Positions 40,494-63,161 of a DNA stretch of 64,000 bases are shown here, in pieces. The position numbers were made by a program, and so were the translations under genes. A model generated the notes under the pieces. It had not been told where the DNA came from and ran no database searches. It worked only from the letters and a program-made list of their open reading frames with translations. Numbering within the stretch: the first letter of the stretch is position 1; each line of letters starts with the position of its first letter. Source of the stretch: Paralichthys olivaceus (Eukaryota; Chordata; Actinopteri; Pleuronectiformes; Paralichthyidae); the NCBI RefSeq assembly GCF_024713975.1, contig NC_091102.1, forward strand, positions 10,173,001 through 10,237,000, in the 5' to 3' direction.

Positions 40494-40566
<73 letters not shown>

Positions 40567-43500
40567 CGCAGTGGAGGAGGGGCAGCTCTTCTCGGAGCTG
40601 GATGACTTGTCCTGGCTGAAGCGTAGGAAAAAGCGAGCTGTAAGTCTCTGATCTCACTTAATGCAACAAATGTCAGTTCCACCACCCTTGACTTGCTGTA
40701 CACCCAGTTTACTATAAAACAAACTTTACAATATGTAGGTTTATGCTTGAAGTGGACTAATTATTGCCGCTTGTCTCTGGTTTTGATTTGCAGATGCCTC
40801 GCAGTGTGTTTGAGGAGATCAAATATTTAGAGATCATGATTGTCAGTGACCACAGTATGGTATGTATATTACCATTAAATGCAATAACAACAATAACAAA
40901 TGTTAGTTTATCATATATATCTTCAAACTAATTCATATTTTACATCCTCACTGCTTTTGTCCCATAACGGGGAGCAGTGTCATGCTATGTTATGTTTGCA
41001 TTAAAGAATCACTCATTTATCTCTTCCTCATCGTTGTGTCTGCAGTATAAACGACACAAAACCAAGCAGCACACGAAGACTTTTGCCAAGTCGGTTGTGA
41101 ATCTTGTGGATGCTGTGAGTAAATGCTTAAGTTACATATTGAGAAATGTGTCTCCGATCTTTAAAACAGATCTAGATTCCATTTCATCTACACAATCAAC
41201 AGTCCCTATTGTTCCTGCATCCCTGCATCTGTCCTGCTCCGACAGTTCAGATCAAAATTCTCATCCTCCTCCTGTGCTGTCACTTCTGTCTCTCTGCCTC
41301 TCTCTCCCTCCCTCTCTGTCTTTCTGTATTCCTTTCATTCACGGCGTGCTTCAATGGCAGATATTTAAAGAGCAGCTACATACACGTGTGGTGCTCGTTG
41401 CCGTGGAGATCTGGACAGACAAGGATCAGATCCCCATCAGCGTGAGGCCGCTGGAAATGTTGCGAGATTTCTCCAAGTACCGGCAGCAGAGCATCAAGCA
41501 TCACGCAGACACTGTGCACCTCTTCTCGTAAGTGAAACAATACACACTTATTACGATTTTCAGTGCATTTAGTTATATTTAGAATATTATTTAGAATATA
41601 AAAAGGCATGTAAAGGGAATAATATGAAAACATACATGGCGAAGAACTGTTAAAGCCATCCATCCACCCACACATACATACATACATACATCCATACATA
41701 CATCAATCTATCCAGAAAACCCACGCAGACACGGGGAGAACATGCAAACCCCACACAGAAAGACCCAAGCCGAACCCTAACCTCCTTGTTATGAAGGAGG
41801 TTGATGTTTTTCCTGGGTACCATTGTCTTGGCATAATAGTGTTGTTCATACTTCACTCTCAGCGTAACATGGCCTGATCCACACTTTGATCACATAGTAT
41901 TCTCTTTGTTTGTCTTTGTAAGTCTGTCTGTCTGTGCTCACTGCAGCTACTTGTACATCAACCAGTGCTGTCTGCATGCATGGGTATTTACCTCTGCCAA
42001 GGAGGTTATGTTTTCATCACTGTTTGTTTGAAACTACTCAACGGATTATCTTGAAACTTGAAGAGTGGGGTATGCGCAAAGGACGGACACTTAAAAATAT
42101 AATATACATAAAATATGTTGATCCAGTTTTTTAGGGGGGTTATTTGTATTCAGTTAGTATTCCTTTCAACTATATTAAATGCATTAAATGTAAACAGTTT
42201 GTGGAAAAAATATCTGGTTCCATGGTATTATGGAATTTTCATAGACACTGTCTCTCGTCCTCTCTGGGGCAGAGTGCAACAGGCTAATGTGCTTGGAAAG
42301 TGCGAGAGCTTGGCAAAGGTCAAAGCCAAACTCCCTAGACATCGCAGATATGAGACTGCATAAGCAGCAATACTGTTTCCATAACTAGTAAATACATTTG
42401 ATTGTTTAGGAACGAGCACACCATTAGATTAAATGATCTGTTGGGGTTTAAAGTGTGACTGCAGGAAAGCAGACGTCAGAATATGAGAGAGCATCATGCA
42501 CAGATGTTGTATGGATGAATTCTCTCCTTGGCCAAGTTTCAATAAATGTTTCAGCGTAAGACGTCAAAGGGCTCCTGAATGCTTTCTTCATTGATGAGTT
42601 GACCATTGATCAGCAGATTTTCCACAACACATGGTGTATATATAATATATGTATATACAATATAGTGATAAAGTGACCACCCTCTAAGTTCCCATTTAGT
42701 TATGTTACATATTGAGTTAAGCTTTTTTCAACTGATCTGATTCTCTGTGATGTTTTTCTTTCTTTTCTTTCGTCTGTTGTTCACATCTTTCTGTTGTTCT
42801 TGCAGAAATGTGACCTTCCACTACCGCAGAAGCAGCGCGGCGTACTTCGGGGGCACCTGCTCTATGAGCCGTGGAGTCGGCGTCAATGAGGTCAGATTTG
42901 CTGCCTTAAAGTCCGGTATCACAGCGTGTGACTACGAGTGAATAATCTCCAGGTCTCTGTTGTGTGTGTCCACAGTACGGCACCACCTGGTCCATGGCAG
43001 TGTCTCTGTGCCAGAGCCTGGCGCAGAATCTGGGCATCCAGTGGGACCCAGTATCCCGGAGAAGTATACATGAAATAGACACTGTTATCTAGTATATGTG
43101 AGCCAGGGAGGGTGTCTGTTCAGAGCCAACATCACAAGGTTCAGGTCCCTCAAATTCCAAAACGAATCCCCTCACCTTAACTTTGGACTCATCCAGGAGA
43201 TGCTCGTCTTTCTCCTTCATCCACTGTGGTGGAATGAACTCTAGTCCTCTATTAGTCCTTGATAACATAGTTCTTGAATTCACTTATTTTATGTTGTTTT
43301 GGCCAAAATTCTCTGCCATTGACTGTTATATAATTTCCTGAGGTTTTGAGATAAACGTCTCTGAGGTTTCTATTGTTTTTTTCCCCATATTTTTAAAAAT
43401 CCAGTATAAAGTATTTCTCTAATTGTCCGCAAGAGGTTTGTGGTTAGATCTGTTTAATCGGAGACATGGTTGTTTAAAGAGGAATGTTTCTTCAGACTTT

Positions 43501-53850: not shown

Positions 53851-56252
53851 GAGCTTCGCTTTCTTTCTCCGTCAAATTTCCACTGACATGATTTCATCTG
53901 CTGGAGTCGCACTGCTGTGACACATGACAAACACGATCCAAGCTGAAGACAGAAACCTGCAGCAGAATTGATACAATTCATGATCTTCGCAAAGTTATAG
54001 ATTAGGTTTATTACTATATTTATGATCTCCTTTTTCAAAAATTTAGAGATGATTCCAAAAACACTCAGTTGATGTATAATAACATAAACTATAAGATGCC
54101 TACAGGCTAAAGATGATCCATTAAATGTATTGATTTCTGGAATAGTTTTGAAAATAAAATTAAAAGGAGTGATATGTTACATTTTTACATTAAAAAAGAA
54201 AATTACATTAGAATTTAAAATGTTTAATAAATATATGAACACATGAAATTTGTTAGGGGGCTATAATACACAGCAATATAACAATTTATATATCCAGGGA
54301 TTAAATCAAAAGGGACTTCAAAACAATTAATCTAACAAGTTAAGAGTAATAAGATTGAAGCTTTGCTCTACACCTTTTCTTTGCTTCCAAAACCAAAAGG
54401 ACTCATAACCAAGATTAATAAAATAAATAAAGTGAATAAGTGTATTTGAGTTGTACTCCCCAACAATTACCAAAATAAAGTAATCTTAATTTACAGACAC
54501 ATTATTTGACACAGTATATATTACTGCATTGTTCATGGCTCAGTCAGGGCCGATACCTTTCAGACTTGTATCCACAGAGACACTGTCCTAGCTGCACTAG
54601 AGAATACATCAACTGATCATTTGCAGATAAAATGGCAGGTAAATCAACAAGTGGAGGAGACCAAACCAGTGATAAAAAGAAAGTGAATGTTTTCTGAGCG
54701 TCTATGGGATTATTATTTCAGCAATTTAGCTTTAAACTTGGAAAACCAATTTGAACTTTTTATCGTCTTTTTTTATCTCAACTGATAATCCTGTACGCTT
54801 AGATAATGCTTATTATTTTTATATTAAGCACTGTTTCAAATTATTAATACCCCTGGTTGGTACTGATATGACCTATTGGAGTGTAGAGAAAAGATTGCCC
54901 ATCTTTGAAATGTTTTTTCATCCATAACATCCTCTGAACAATAATAATTTCAAATTTCTCTCATTTAATCACAATAATTTGTACCTTAATGCCTCACTTC
55001 CTGTCCAGAGACTTCCTAGCATTACATTTTATGTCTCAATATGAAAATGGTTTTTCTTTTAAAGTTATAATTTAGGCCTTGTAGCAGAAATTGTGAATGA
55101 CTGCATAAGAAACCCACCCTGTACATTTAGCGTCAGCCCCCCACTGCTTAGGTAATTATATTTGAGATCAACTATGCATGTGACATTTCAGTAAAAGCAT
55201 AGAAATGTAACTTGTGCACTGTTCTCTGGAACACCATCCATCACTGAGCTTGTTTTTACAGACAGGAGACCTGTGCAAGTTTCTGGGGTCCGACTGCTTA
55301 TGTTTTGTGCTTGTTCTTCATCCTGAACTGAAAATGTAAGTCCTTACGTTAAGCTCAACATAACACATTGCATTAAACCTCTGAATAAAGACTGTAATAA
55401 TACTTCAAAAGAACAGCAGATCTTGGTGGAGGATGCAGTCATAAAAAGGACATTTGTTCTTTATTTGAGTCAAATTAAATTTGTCCAGCACAGACTGGAG
55501 AAGACATAAATGTGAAGTCTGGAAAGCATTTTGCACAGAATACAGAGGATTTTGTTCCCCATGTCAGAGGAGCTGCAAGTGATCTCTGAGAAGACAATGT
55601 GAAGATGATGAACCACTAAAATTAACTGGCTATCTTATTAATCGATAACAACAAATCAAACGGAAACTATTTTTGTAATTGATCCTCATTTAAATCATCT
55701 ACAAGTGTCCAGAAAGTGACGACTTACTGATTGTCCTTTTCTTACATAACAAACTTCTTTGGTATTTAGGCTGTCGGCCGGTAATAAAAAGAAACCTGAA
55801 GATTAGGTTAGGTGAATAGGAATTAGGTGAATAGGGATTAGCACATTTTCATTGTAAAGATTGTTGTAAAGAACAACAAATAGATTAATGAAGAAAATAA
55901 CCAGCAAAATAATTATGTTATTAAAATAAGCATTAGTTAAAGCCCTATTCATCCTTTGAATCAAGAGTTTATCTTTGTGGCATCAAAATTAGTCCAGAAA
56001 GTAAAACACAATTTGTCTTAGTGAGCAGGATCTGAAAAACTAGAATCCCCCAATTTCTTGTTTTTGTTTTTTCATTGTGTGCAGAACGAACCTTAGAAAT
56101 GTGCATCCCATTACAACAAGTGCATTCATTACGATCCTGTGATTAACTGGTATATTTCTCTGTGAATGAAATGCAACAAAAACATGACAAGGACTGAGAC
56201 GTAATATAAGTGCAGTAGCTTATCAAACCAGTGAGTGAAAGCACGGAGCAGC
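53851..56252. other. AT-rich intergenic region between adam23 and fam237a
   Basis: No exon, RNA gene or recognisable repeat was found on either strand. The ORFs are all short. Confidence 0.5.
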
Positions 56253-56361
56253 ATTGTTACACTAACTCTGCGCAAAGGAGGGAGGCACTGACGTCAATTA
56301 ACAGCCAACAGATATTTACCAAACTCCAATCAACATTATAGTGTGGTCAGTGCGCCCAGCT
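56253..56361 (+). repeat. Left arm of a perfect 109-bp inverted repeat flanking fam237a
   Basis: This arm is the exact reverse complement of 59737-59845, with no mismatch in 109 positions on base-by-base comparison. It holds a palindromic CRE (56289-56296), a CCAATCA box (56326-56332) and ends six bases before a strong splice donor at 56368. It therefore probably overlaps the fam237a promoter and/or first exon. Confidence 0.95.
56289..56296. promoter_or_regulatory. Full palindromic CRE (TGACGTCA)
   Basis: Exact consensus site for CREB/ATF dimers, about 340 bp upstream of the fam237a ATG and inside the inverted-repeat arm. Activity is inferred. Confidence 0.6.
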
Positions 56362-56367
56362 TTAGTG
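56340..56367 (+). other. fam237a: Candidate noncoding first exon end of fam237a
   Basis: TTTAGTG|GTAAGTAC is a near-perfect donor at 56368. It pairs with the acceptor GTGTCCAG directly before the ATG at 56638, giving a 270-nt 5' UTR intron. The exon start is not determinable. Confidence 0.45.
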
Positions 56368-56637
56368 GTAAGTACAGTATTTTATTATAAAAAACTAGTT
56401 ACTGCTTTTTATTAAGGTACATTGTATTGTTTGTATTTAGGTATAATCTGCACATTATTGCCTTTAAAAGGAATTGAGATAAAGAAATGTCAAAAGTTTT
56501 CACTCTTAAAAAACTATTTACAAGTGATGTATGTGATATTTTGAGTGTTTTGTGAAGAATCAAACCTGATCAATTATCTGCATGCTGCTCAATATTAAAG
56601 TGAACTTCCAGAGAGATCTGACCTGCGTTGTGTCCAG

Positions 56638-57025
56638 ATGGTCCCTGTGCTCCTGAACGCACCGTTGGCCGCAGTGTTTATACTGAGCTCCATGTGTGCC
56701 GTGCCGCTCCGGGGTCAGAAGCCGGGTCAGGTGGACCCTCTGGCGGCCCATCGCTCCAACCCGCAGTGCTGGGACTCCTCCTCGGCGCTGGTGCTGGAGA
56801 TGCGCTCCCCGAGGATCGCAGACACGGTGCCCGCCTTCTGGGACCTGATGGTGTTCCTCAGGGCGTCAGACAAGAGCAAACACACGGATCTCTTCTGGGA
56901 CCTGGCCCGGGTCTTCTGGGACATCTACGTGGACTGTGTGCTGTCCAGGAGCCACGGCCTGGGCCGGAGACACGTCACCGCCGTGCACTCCCTCATCACT
57001 GACAGTGAGTGACACACACACACAC

Positions 57026-57115
<90 letters not shown>

Positions 57116-58259
57116 CTTTTTACTTTGCTTTATTCTACATTTATTTCACAGTGGAGTTCTATTAATCATCCGTGTATTAGTATTAATTATTAAATCTTTC
57201 ATTTAACCCTGTTACAAACGTATGAAATATAAAATGAATTGTCCCAACAGGAAAGGCTGACATAGATTTCAATAATATAATTATATAGGAAAATATAATG
57301 TACATGAAATACAATGTAATGTGTATTATTTTCCATTATTTCCCATGTTTATTCTGGTTCTGCACTTTAACTTAATCGTGGGATCTGGTCTCCCATCACA
57401 GGTTGTGGAGAGAATACAAGGGAGATTATTTGGTTCAGTAAATTGCAAAATGTAAATTGTAAACTTGTTTAAATCTTTTTATGTATTTTTTATCTTTCTC
57501 AATACCTAGAAGTCGTTCATGTTGAAGAAAGCAAATATTTTGGCTGATTTCTTCCATATTCTTCAATCCTAATGACCTAAAATTAAAATATTATTATAAT
57601 ATATTTGCTACAAATTCTTTAATCAAACTTTCAGATTTACACCTGTAACATACATACAGGACATTAATGCAATGATAGAAGACATATCCATACAAAATAT
57701 ACTTCTTCTTCAATATGAATGGTTTTACACTAATGAAACCTTTTTTTAATTATGTATCTAATGCTATTAAATCAGAATTCTGCTTTTAATTTGGCGGCAA
57801 ACAAGAAGAAAAGGTCAGAAAACCTACCAGCCACACCTGTCTGTCAGATTACCTGCATTTACCCATGCAGCACTGAGGTTATGGACATAATCCTTGGTTT
57901 GGTTCAAGAGACCAAAGTATAACAGGTCCAGTTTCCTTGGTTCAATGTATACTTCAGTTCTGTTATAACTGTGGGTCTGGAGCTGCTCTCTCAGTCTGAC
58001 GCTCAAAAGGGTTGAGGAGGGAGAATTATCTGGGACTTCATGCTGCATTGACGAGTCCTCTGGTCACACGATGGATCTCACCAGTTGAAGAATTCATCCC
58101 TGAAGTACGATTCATGATGGTGGTACAGCTGAGATGTTGCATGAATGTATATAGTCTATATCAAAAAGGTTTCTGCAGATGTTTTCATAAAAGATGTGGT
58201 CAACTGGAAAAATGCTGTTTTCCAATGAATGGTGTTTCATGCTTTGTTTTTTTCTGTGT

Positions 58260-58334
<75 letters not shown>

Positions 58335-58469
58335 TCCTCCACAGAGTCCTTCAGGTTCAACAGCTCGGGGCTGAACTCTCGGGCGTGGCTCAGCGTCAGA
58401 GTAAGACACAGAGGACACACGAAGACCCTGAAGACCAAACCCAAATCAAACAAACACTACCACAAATAA
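56638..58469 (+). CDS. fam237a: FAM237A / neurosecretory protein GL precursor
   Basis: Small secreted neuropeptide precursor. In birds and mammals NPGL is hypothalamic and affects feeding and fat storage, and FAM237A has been reported to activate GPR83. Exons 56638-57004 and 58345-58469; 163 residues. A signal peptide (MVPVLLNAPLAAVFILSSMC) is followed by a conserved mature region with Cys44 (NPQCWDSSSALVLEM) and Cys100 (FWDIYVDCVLSR), presumably disulphide-bonded. It ends SHGLGRR: Leu108 would be amidated using Gly109 after dibasic cleavage at Arg110-Arg111. This GL-amide end separates it from the paralogue NPGM/FAM237B. The C-terminal propeptide is basic (KTLKTKPKSNKHYHK). The position next to adam23 matches the human order. 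Confidence 0.93.
57012..57113. repeat. (CA)n tract immediately after the fam237a exon donor
   Basis: About 100 nt of CA with one CG interruption, starting seven bases after the donor GT at 57005. Confidence 0.95.
58255..58333. repeat. (TG)n tract immediately before the fam237a exon 2 acceptor
   Basis: About 79 nt of TG with one TC interruption, ending 11 bases before the exon border (TCTCCTCCACAG). Confidence 0.95.
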
Positions 58470-58633
58470 TTCACCAGGTTTTTAACGTTTACAATCTTCA
58501 TCAATATTTTCTTTCCTTCTGAACATCATCTATCCTTGAGGACAAATCAAGATCTTTACTGTCCCACACAGCCAGAATGCAGTCATTATGTATATTTTTT
58601 CCTTTATTTATTTTTATTTAATGTGCAATTTAA

Positions 58634-58639
58634 AATAAA
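58634..58639 (+). terminator. fam237a: Candidate poly(A) signal of fam237a
   Basis: AATAAA 165 bases past the stop, in TTTAAAATAAATGG. Confidence 0.6.
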
Positions 58640-59736
58640 TGGTTGTCATACACAGTGCAACCCCACTCTAAACTAAAAACAAATGGTGGAGCGAACAAAA
58701 GCCAAAATTAGGCTCGCAAGTTCAAGTTCTCTCCAGCTGTTTCCTGATATAAATATATCAGTTTTAATTCATTAATGTATTGATGATGTAGAAATTAGGC
58801 AGCAGCTAAATCCAGTCTTGTCTAGCATAGAAAAGTAGCAGTAGTTAACTTTGTCTCAAGTGGAATTTGAAATTACATCTCTAAATGTTTTAAAATATAA
58901 ATAACAAGTTTTTTAATACATCCATGCTTCACCCCCCCATGTCTTTCTGTAACGTAACATTGTTTACAATAATGATTTTTTGACACACAATAATATTTTC
59001 ATTATGTCACTGCACAATTACCTTATATTTATTCTGTATTAAGAAAACAGTAGGTTAAGTTGATGTTGTTGTCCTTTCTTATAGCTTGTGTTATGTACTT
59101 CCTCTCATTTCTGTGTATTAATGGTGATACTCCACGAATAACAGGATTGTTGCTATGGTTACCTGCACACCACTGTGCCCTAACATTTAATTTTTTGTGC
59201 TTTATTTATTACTTTTTTACATGTTTTTGTTCTTGAGATTAACCCTAATCAAGCCAATGCAACAGTGTATGAACAATAGTGGATTCTTGTCAAAACTATC
59301 AGAAGATTACCAATGTTTCTAATCAATTTATGTGCATTTTATGTGCAATAAAAGAATGTATCATAAGTGCAGGTGGTTTATCCTTGAATGTACTTATGCA
59401 GGGAAGCGCAAGAAGAACAACTAGAACCGCTCCTGCCTGCTGCTCAGCACAAGGCCTTAATGGGGGCTTGTTTCCCTCCCCTTGACATTTTATAACAAAT
59501 TGAAAATACATATAAATCTAAAGGTAAGAAACTACATAAAATGAAAAGAATAATGGATCAAAATAATAAAAAATAAGACAAGTTAAATAATCAACTAAAT
59601 AACATAAATCAATTTAACATTATTTAATTAAGTAACTATTTAATTAACTCAACTTACTTTATTTTATGACATTTTTATTTTTTTAAATAGAAAAAAGTAA
59701 TAATATAAGATTATTATACATTCTTGCTCACTGGTT
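58640..59736. other. Intergenic region downstream of fam237a
   Basis: AT-rich, no supported gene. Ends at the right inverted-repeat arm. Confidence 0.5.
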
Positions 59737-59845
59737 AGCTGGGCGCACTGACCACACTATAATGTTGATTGGAGTTTGGTAAATATCTGTTGGCTGTTAA
59801 TTGACGTCAGTGCCTCCCTCCTTTGCGCAGAGTTAGTGTAACAAT
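59737..59845 (-). repeat. Right arm of the perfect 109-bp inverted repeat
   Basis: Exact reverse complement of 56253-56361, including the CRE at 59802-59809. If it has promoter activity, its orientation points it back across fam237a on the minus strand. Confidence 0.95.
59802..59809. promoter_or_regulatory. Second full CRE (TGACGTCA)
   Basis: Copy of the palindromic CRE within the right arm, about 1.1 kb upstream of the caspase-like start codon and 1.3 kb downstream of the fam237a stop. Confidence 0.5.
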
Positions 59846-60923
59846 ATGGTCTTGTGTGTACTGAGGGGTCATCCAGACCAGAGAAGCACTTTATAAACAC
59901 AGAACATCCAGCATCAACCTGCTGGGTCACTGGGGAAAATACAGATCCAGTCAGAAATCAACTGTGTGTTTGTGCTGAGTGATTCAAACTGAGCTCAAAG
60001 TTGGACCTCAGTGAACCCACGTGCTTTTTGACGTTTCACCAGATGTTCCTGATCCTGACGTCACGACCTGCTCAGGACCCCGCCCTCAGATGTCCCCCGA
60101 AGAAACATGATCCGGGCTCTGCCACAGGAACCTTAGTCTTAAAATCACAAAAGTATCGTACACGTTCATTTGAATTCTATATTGATAATTGTAACTTCAA
60201 CATAGTCTCTGAATTCTGAAATGATCTATATTTGAACGCTGTTTGTAGAACAGGGCGTGACAGTCTCGCAAAAATACGATAATAATCCTGTAACTTTCTT
60301 TTACTTTCGGTTTGAACTTGCTCATTCGACTCGAGCTGCGCTGAGGTCTGTGTCCGGAAGTAATCTATCATAGAAGTTTTCTACTTCTACGACGATTATA
60401 TTGAAGTGGACTTTAAATAACTTTAATCAGACTTTGTGAAAACTCCTCCAGACAGGTGGGTATCACTGAGAGACATCATTTAATCAAACTTGTTCTACTT
60501 CCTGATTCATACAGTGATCAACAGCTCACAGAGTTATACTACAACTACAGCTCTCTGAAGGTGTTTCTCCTTTTTATGTAAGTGGAAGAAGGCTGTCATA
60601 TGGATTTATGTGGGAGTGAAAGTCATAATCAGATAATATTCTTCTGAGGTGTTGATTACCAACTACCATAAGTACTGTAACATAAGACAAGGTGGTAATT
60701 ATAAGGTCTTCCTTACAGGTCATCCCGGCCTTTATATCTTAAAATTAACTGGTGCGAAAACTTTAAGGGATTCACACAACCTCCTCCAGAATGCCATCAC
60801 ATGTTATGGTTATTATCTGTGATAAAACTGTGGATTTAATGTATATAAAGATGAAATTGTGACAGGCATTATGTTAGAGAAGAAAACAGACGTCTGAGTG
60901 AGTTTGCCTCGTGTTTAATACAG
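59846..60923 (+). other. 5' region of the caspase-like gene: presumed noncoding exon 1 and intron 1
   Basis: GACAG|GTGGG at 60455/60456 is a plausible donor of a noncoding first exon (start near 60300-60400). The matching acceptor TTTAATACAG is at 60914-60923. Between 59846 and 60300 nothing else is recognised. Confidence 0.4.
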
Positions 60924-60926
60924 GGA

Positions 60927-63161
60927 ATGGATTTCCAGAAGCTCCTGTTAGATGTGGGGAAGGCCCTGGGTACGGACGAGGTAAAAGCTCTAATATTTCT
61001 TTGCACCGACATCCTGGACCGAAATCCAACCTCTGTGAAGTCAGCCAATGACCTCTTCTCTCGTCTGGCGGAACGAGACCATCTCTCGCATGAGCGACGA
61101 GACCTGCTGACTGAGCTTCTGCGCACCATACAACGCCTCGACCTAGTCAGTGCCTTCAATCTCAACGACAGAGAACCTACAACCACTAGCCTCATCTCTC
61201 CCTACAGGTGGGCTGCTCACATTTTACTGCTTTTAAGTAAATCATCCAATAATTATTGTTACAGGAAATTATTTGAAGACGCTCACGCTAAATGGATGCA
61301 CCTTCTTCATACAAAGCATAGGATCAGTATCAGAGACATGAACCTGATGAACATTGATGACTAGATGTTTAGAAATGTTTCCAGAGTAAACTTCCTTATA
61401 TAGAAGGAATTCAGGTTTTGGATGTCATTTATTGTTTGATTATGTTTTATATTAGTGGTCTCTGAAAAGTCATAAAATAGAAATATAAGAAAAATCCCAT
61501 AGCAATTTCTTGGAGTCTGGGGTCACCCCTCTCTTGTTTTGTCCAAACATCTGTCATATATCATAAATGTATCATATATATCATTGAAATCTATGGAAAA
61601 CTGCAATTTCTCATTGCTTAAAATGGTAGTGGTGTCAGAATACTAACATACGACGGTGATACATGTCAAGAATGTCCAGTCCAATACCAGGCCAACTGAG
61701 AAAACTCTTGGGTTGTACTGTTTTATTTTAGGAAGCTGCTCTACAACCTGTACGAGGAGATGACTCGAGAGGACTTGGAAGAAGTGAAGTTTTTGTTGTA
61801 CAAAACGGTCCCACGTAGAAAACTGGAGGACAATTATGTGAGTTGTGTCAGCGTTTGAATCCTGTGGTTTGAGGAGACAAGAGACAATCAGTTCTAAACA
61901 TGCAAACTATAAATACTGCAGTGCTACAACTTTGTGCATTGATTGGTTAACAATACATGGACGGCAGTGTCTCAGGAGGTGGAGTTGGTCATCCGCTAAC
62001 CAGAAAGTCGTTGGTTTTGTCCTCGACTCTGCCTCTAAGTATGCCAAAGTGTCCTTGGGTAACATACTGAACACCAAATTACCTTGCAATGCGTGATGAT
62101 GAGTGATTGTAAAAAAAAGCATAAAATACTGTTAGTGTTGTAAGAATGTGAATGTGGCTGTAAAGTGCTTTGAGTGGTCGAAGTCCTGCATAAACACAGT
62201 TCTATAAATACATTTCTATAAAATAAAAGTGTAAATTTGCTCAACTTTTCAGTCGTTGCTGGACGTCTTCCTGAAGATGGAGCACATGGACATCCTGAGT
62301 GACACTAACCTAAGTGAACTGGAGACGATCATTTACTCAGTCTGTCCCAAGATGAGAGGACAGATCAACCAGTTCAAGACACAGCAGGGTAAGCTACAGA
62401 AAACACTCTCTCCCGTCAAAGAGTTTCTTTCAGTGGTTAGCTGGGCTGGTTCTGAAGTCAACACATCAAAGCAGGAGGAGCAAGAGCAATTATGAAAAAA
62501 TGATTCTACTTTATTATACATGCATACATATGATATATATATTATACTTAATTTAGACTTTTCCCACTCTGAAACATGTCTTATTATATTGTTGTAAATT
62601 TGATACATATGTAAACATCTGCTGTTTCATTTCAATCAATTTAATGCAAAGTTATAACGCAAAATCATTTGTTCTCATTCTTAGAAGCCCTCCAGTCATC
62701 TACCCTGGTAAGAAAATACAGAATCACTTATATGACGATGAAACCGATTTATTTTGTCTTGTGGTGTATTTTATTTTTAATTTCTCTTGTGTCCCGCAGT
62801 ATTCCGTTGATTCTTCCAGCACTGTTCTGAGTGAGTTCTGTTTTGGATTTGATGTTTAACAGAAACTTTTTTCCATTTCATAAGCAGAATTTTTTTCAAA
62901 ATCCTTTTTTATGACTTTTCCAGATTCTTCAGAATCACACTTAAGCAGTGAAATGAGCAGCCTTTCCTTCTCAGAACATTGTTGTAAGTCTTTTCCACAG
63001 TGATGAGCTTTATGAACCGAACATGACAGAATTATCTTTGTGGAAAATGACGACACTGTTCTTCCACTGCATTCGTCTGTCTCACAGTGAACAGTGATAC
63101 TGTTTCGGCGTCTCAAGAAAGCAGGAGCCTCCCTGAAAATCAGACATCTACAAACAGTGAG
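60927..63161 (+). CDS. Caspase-8/-10-like initiator caspase, tandem DED part; continues beyond the window
   Basis: Initiator caspase recruited by FADD to death-receptor complexes in the cytosol. Exons: 60927-61207, 61732-61837, 62253-62388, 62685-62707, 62800-62830, 62924-62983, 63088-63161. They give 237 residues in one continuous frame, with the next donor GTGTGT at 63162. DED1 spans about 1-80 (MDFQKLLLDVGKALGTDEVK, with RLDL near its end). DED2 spans about 94-172 (KLLYNLYEEM, EEVKFLLYKTVPRRKLEDNY, LLDVFLKMEHMDILSDTNL). A Ser/Glu/Thr-rich linker follows, built from very small exons. The MDF start and tandem DEDs suggest caspase-8, but caspase-10 and CFLAR share this layout. The catalytic QACxG region would decide and is not in the window, so no symbol is given. 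Confidence 0.85.
61957..62225 (+). mobile_element. SINE-like dispersed element in a caspase-like gene intron
   Basis: ACGGCAGTGTCTCAGGAGGT, CCGCTAACCAGAAAGTCGTT, GTCCTTGGGTAACATACTGA and AAAGTGCTTTGAGTGG are consecutive blocks of a very common percomorph short element. It is nearly full length in the intron between the two DED2 exons. Confidence 0.6.

Follow-up and report, generated by a model that had tools for sequence, protein, structure and literature searches.

The window analysed here, a stretch of 64,000 nucleotides (positions 10173001-10237000 of the 26.5-Mb contig C10), retains a vertebrate gene block consisting of an NDUFS1-like gene, a rhodopsin-type receptor gene, ADAM23-like exons, fam237a and a DED-domain gene (Table 1). 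The two coding exons of fam237a specify a product of 163 amino acids; the name is a putative one taken from our reading of the protein, Pfam giving no match for the first coding exon, and we take the product to be the precursor of neurosecretory protein GL. FAM237A, ADAM23, GPR1 and NDUFS1 are listed together for goat, strands not being given in the available part of that source (PMC9902602). A search of the literature for the FAM237A promoter or the strand of the gene yielded nothing usable, including in the accessible portions of PMC9902602, PMC12519442 and PMC10583716.

The coding intron of fam237a (57005-58344) carries an (AC)51 tract seven bases past its first base and a (TG)39.5 tract eleven bases before its end. 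AC/GT repeats that bridge the ends of introns are found in teleosts, and a predicted RNA fold, made without a shuffle control at this length, would pair the two tracts and draw the splice sites of the intron together. A (TG)35.5 tract at 40495-40575, just 5' of an acceptor-like TTCGCAG in the ADAM23-like region, resembles them in its placement.

Table 1. Features of the window, in window coordinates.
Feature	Position	Strand	Remarks
NDUFS1-like gene		-	Pfam Molybdopterin oxidoreductase; gene name from our own reading
Rhodopsin-type receptor gene		-	
ADAM23-like exons		+	ADAM_CR below cut-off; name from our own reading
AACCAGTGAG, first copy	56226..56235	+	17 bases upstream of left arm; sole plus-strand copy in window
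Left arm	56253..56361	+	109 bases, probable source; 109/109 identity, 2 genome matches
TGACGTCA of left arm	56289..56296	+	
CCAAT of left arm	56326..56330	+	
fam237a coding exon, first part	56638..57004	+	
fam237a coding exon, second part	58345..58469	+	includes stop
AACCAGTGAG, second copy	59727..59736	-	abuts inner edge of right arm; sole minus-strand copy in window
Right arm	59737..59845	-	109 bases, inverted, probable copy; 109/109 identity, 2 genome matches
CCAAT of right arm	59768..59772	-	reads ATTGG on plus
TGACGTCA of right arm	59802..59809	-	
Dispersed SINE-like repeat fragment	59862..59907	+	16 bases outside right arm; six further genome matches, 85-89%
DED-domain (caspase-like) gene	start codon 60927	+	DED, E 1.9e-18

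An exact inverted repeat around fam237a

Direct comparison of the left arm with the reverse complement of the right arm gives agreement at 109 of 109 positions, and the identity ends sharply at both edges of the unit, the flanking bases differing at once. This bears out the perfect 109-bp inverted repeat of the preliminary description, together with its placing of the fam237a gene between the arms, both coding exons being enclosed, and its assignment of a CRE (TGACGTCA) and a CCAAT box to each arm. A chance origin is excluded for an identity of 109 bases. The doubling of TGACGTCA and CCAAT would follow from their presence in the copied piece; base composition predicts 0.86 occurrences of TGACGTCA in the window, and a third copy stands outside the arms at 60056-60063, about 0.87 kb 5' of the DED-domain start codon. 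With 0 differences in 109 positions, at most 2.7% divergence is permitted at 95%, and the duplication is therefore recent, as had been suggested, unless the arms are held identical by conversion or constraint.

The presumed donor GTAAGT starts at 56368, six bases past the end of the left arm, just as had been described, and TATA-like words stand on either side of this arm, upstream at 56205 and downstream at 56386. The left arm may represent either a promoter element, as its motifs suggest, or the greater part of a 5' UTR exon.

Copy number in the window and the genome

A search of the 588-Mb genome (25 contigs; match counts are lower bounds for repeats) returned two matches to the arm (2 candidates, 2 scored), both being the arms described here. 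The earlier suggestion of a duplication in opposite orientation is upheld and the event is confined to this locus; a repeat family, named at the time as a finding that would remove a gene-specific interpretation, is ruled out by the presence of only two copies. Within the window, arm words of at least 13 bases have no further occurrence, and among the 25 longest of the 176 inverted pairs 24 are CA/TG microsatellites, the remaining one being the arm pair. The same pair is the sole survivor of a BLAST self-comparison of the window (at least 40 bases, at least 85%, low complexity removed). An 18-base arm pattern had 0 matches in viral contigs, and a search of the window for structured RNA gave no Rfam match. 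A paralogous fam237a as the source was rejected, the exon-1 peptide finding only itself (1 genome match).

Genome-wide searches covered three of the four flanks (55700-56252, 59380-59736 and 59846-60400). The first two gave self-matches only, and the third found itself and at least six other sites over 46-49 bases at 85-89%. Under the same filter as the self-comparison, a background of twenty 10-kb stretches plus the window, which at 264 kb is too small for a rate, contained one other inverted pair (97 bases, 92%, stretch L008); this pair is a repeat, related sequence being present in L021 and L003 and, across 28 bases, in L017. The sampled stretches also hold near-tandem direct repeats (L015:2530-2962 and L021:3903-4191), whose lengths are 111-203 and 114 bases at 85-90%.

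Flanks and joints

Six pairings of the sequences flanking the arms were each scored against 300 Markov-resampled pairs. The observed score was attained by 272/300 resampled pairs for the outer and 144/300 for the inner 150-base flanks, by 249/300 and 46/300 for the outer and inner 600-base flanks, and by 35/300 and 222/300 for the two crossed 150-base pairings. Because no residual homology beyond the arms rises above these controls in the six comparisons (150 and 600 bases), the arms are, judged from their flanks, a bounded unit of 109 bases, and the idea that they are what survives of an older and longer inverted duplication, decayed outside its core, is ruled out on the same grounds. The contrast drawn previously between identical arms and otherwise diverged noncoding DNA holds in its first part, but the flanks are unrelated rather than diverged.

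In the orientation of the fam237a side the right copy reads GACCAT, then the arm, then AACCAGTGAG, and homology at either of its joints is at most 1 base, provided that no base was lost. No target-site duplication above chance was found around it, in agreement with the earlier view that a simple transposon is unsupported: the best candidate, the five-base word CAAGA in a loose frame of 15/25 bases, has a null P of 0.19. The word ACCA is present within 8 bases of the arm on each side, and an A tract is absent at both ends of the right copy. GC content over the 200 bases on the inner side of each arm is 16% at the right arm and 25.5% at the left.

The word AACCAGTGAG that abuts the right arm is shared with the neighbourhood of the left arm (Table 1). 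A word of at least 10 bases that lies within 2 bases of a joint and is common to the source neighbourhood occurs at 0.9% of random joints, and the same kind of sharing of at least 10 bases is seen for 0.8% of random pairs of 80-base flanks; the match was noticed post hoc and may be taken as a clue only.

A dispersed repeat beside the right arm

The repeat fragment outside the right arm is one that, by its look, we take to be SINE-like, and a second, longer piece of a resembling repeat occupies 62040-62180. When the flanks of the right arm were joined and aligned with five repeat copies and the second window repeat, local alignment stopped at the known edge of the repeat, and no SINE-like repeat was seen to run across the joined site in this low-power test. 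The left-flank scores of two repeat copies were attained by few shuffles, 1/200 for L030 and 2/200 for L027; the L030 match is a 12-base A-rich word in the right order, and the L027 match lies elsewhere. An end-anchored extension test found none of five copies significant, the score of the best, L030, being attained by 352/1000 shuffles and 234/1000 random stretches; such a test for an empty site has little power, alignment among the repeat copies themselves being poor over this part.

Origin of the inverted repeat

The observation is real and locus-specific, a recent inverted duplication or an inversion scar, and ordinary in kind. We favour, with a probability of about 0.55, a recent non-tandem inverted duplication through template switching or patch repair. 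Of the two arms, the left is probably the source and the right the copy, because the left lies in the fam237a 5' region and the right has an AT-rich tract on one side and a truncated repeat on the other. We envisage replication or break repair some 3.4 kb downstream of the fam237a 5' region, in which DNA synthesis would have switched to, or a patch would have been copied from, the 109 bases of the left arm; these would then have been laid down inverted at the site of the right arm and joined with at most 1 base of homology per joint. On this model template switching or patch repair would be the mechanism of the duplication, and the right copy would so far be without a selected function.

The exact identity, the restriction to two copies, the sharp ends and the lack of a target-site duplication above chance all speak for such a duplication. 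The 16% GC inside the right arm may be added, since template-switch sites in apes are AT-rich in the available text of PMC7954356; for the direction of copying this argument is weak because the sequence inside the left arm is likewise AT-rich. A two-piece templated insert would account for the abutment of the copy by a 10-base word from near the source, and the 109-base size fits known templated insertions and inverted duplications. Against a duplication, the arms bracket a whole gene, which a plain insertion would do only by accident; the AACCAGTGAG match would be more natural had both places once been neighbours, as under an inversion; and the joined flanks show no SINE-like repeat crossing the site, in a test of low power.

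The main alternative, possible but less likely and absent from the preliminary description, is an earlier inversion of the entire gene block, of which the inverted repeat would be the scar. The 3.4-kb fam237a block would have been flipped by staggered breaks, one breakpoint being staggered by 109 bases, and fill-in would have duplicated these bases in inverted orientation at the ends of the block; had the stagger been at the right-hand break, the former arrangement would have been a head-to-head pair of fam237a and the caspase-8-like gene with the CRE stretch between them. The enclosure of a complete gene is natural for an inverted block, and the observed footprint matches that described for staggered-break inversions in the accessible part of PMC7584159, although the same text allows that such duplications may be repair footprints. 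Before such an inversion the starts of the two AACCAGTGAG words would have been 27 or 136 bases apart, and the frequency of complex direct 10-mers within 60 bases is 0.07% of positions, about five times the arithmetic expectation for unrelated sequence (about 0.015%). The AACCAGTGAG match would be compatible with former adjacency or with a two-piece insert from one source, and may mildly favour one or other of these. Set against an inversion, there is no sign that the block ever stood in the opposite orientation, and recombination between repeats is given as the commoner origin of inversions in vertebrates, staggered breaks being that in invertebrates (PMC11499932, in the portion available).

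It is improbable that the right copy is a selected second regulatory module acting as an antisense promoter, an enhancer or part of the control of the caspase-like gene. This copy retains every base, TGACGTCA and CCAAT included, and is placed about 1.1 kb 5' of the DED-domain reading frame, but a young neutral copy would be equally perfect. Very improbable is a circuit in which the CRE module would be live at both ends, cAMP/CREB signalling would start transcription toward fam237a from each, and the right copy would make antisense RNA, a feedback circuit arising from one recent mutation. An assembly artefact is quite improbable: each copy has its own unrelated flanks inside one 26.5-Mb contig, and we know of no usual artefact by which an inverted copy of 109 bases would come to lie at a distance of 3.4 kb. 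A block set between inverted arms resembles one with terminal repeats, but a mobile element is exceedingly improbable and a transposon or retroposon disfavoured, there being only two genome copies where many would be expected of a DNA transposon or SINE, and neither a target-site duplication above chance nor an Rfam match in the window; comparison of the arm with six copies of the SINE-like repeat likewise gave no clear match (scores 13-23).

The inverted duplication would be a clean, young case in which one copying accident has placed an intact promoter-like stretch, reversed, beyond a gene; if the block proves to be inverted, it would represent an inversion the size of a gene that still bears its scar. 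Either origin would offer a datable test of whether such copies acquire a regulatory effect.

Comparison with known systems

The comparisons that follow are with these systems as set out in the accessible parts of the papers cited. Templated insertions at induced breaks span 73-414 bp and lack target-site duplications (PMC5110952). Class 2 TSIPs of that study are polymorphic, carry neither a target-site duplication nor a poly(A) tract or cryptic poly(A) signal, and have microhomology, small deletions or added bases at their joints. The right copy resembles them as a short exact copy of a unique stretch, of a size within this range, that lacks a tail and shows no target-site duplication above chance; their templates come from distant regions, whereas the source here is just 3.4 kb away. 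Templated and inverted insertions at breaks have also been studied in yeast (PMC11724301), and small inverted triplications have pieces with medians of 148/160/148 bp (PMC13334657). Short-range template switching in great apes (PMC7954356), at sites that are AT-rich, resembles the proposed event at our locus in its inverted copying from nearby and its AT-rich surroundings; here the right arm is an exact inverted copy of a nearby unique stretch, and 109 bases would have been copied over 3.4 kb.

Staggered-break inversions (PMC7584159) leave a block bounded at each end by the same segment in opposite orientation, a pattern that the fam237a block shows. Inverted duplications form the largest class among human inversions outside mobile elements (277/733), with a median of 284 bp and mostly 1-15 bp of microhomology (PMC12350158). 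These are called up to 2 kb from the insertion point, whereas our arms are 3.4 kb apart; in common with them, the right arm would be a short inverted copy near its source, joined with little homology.
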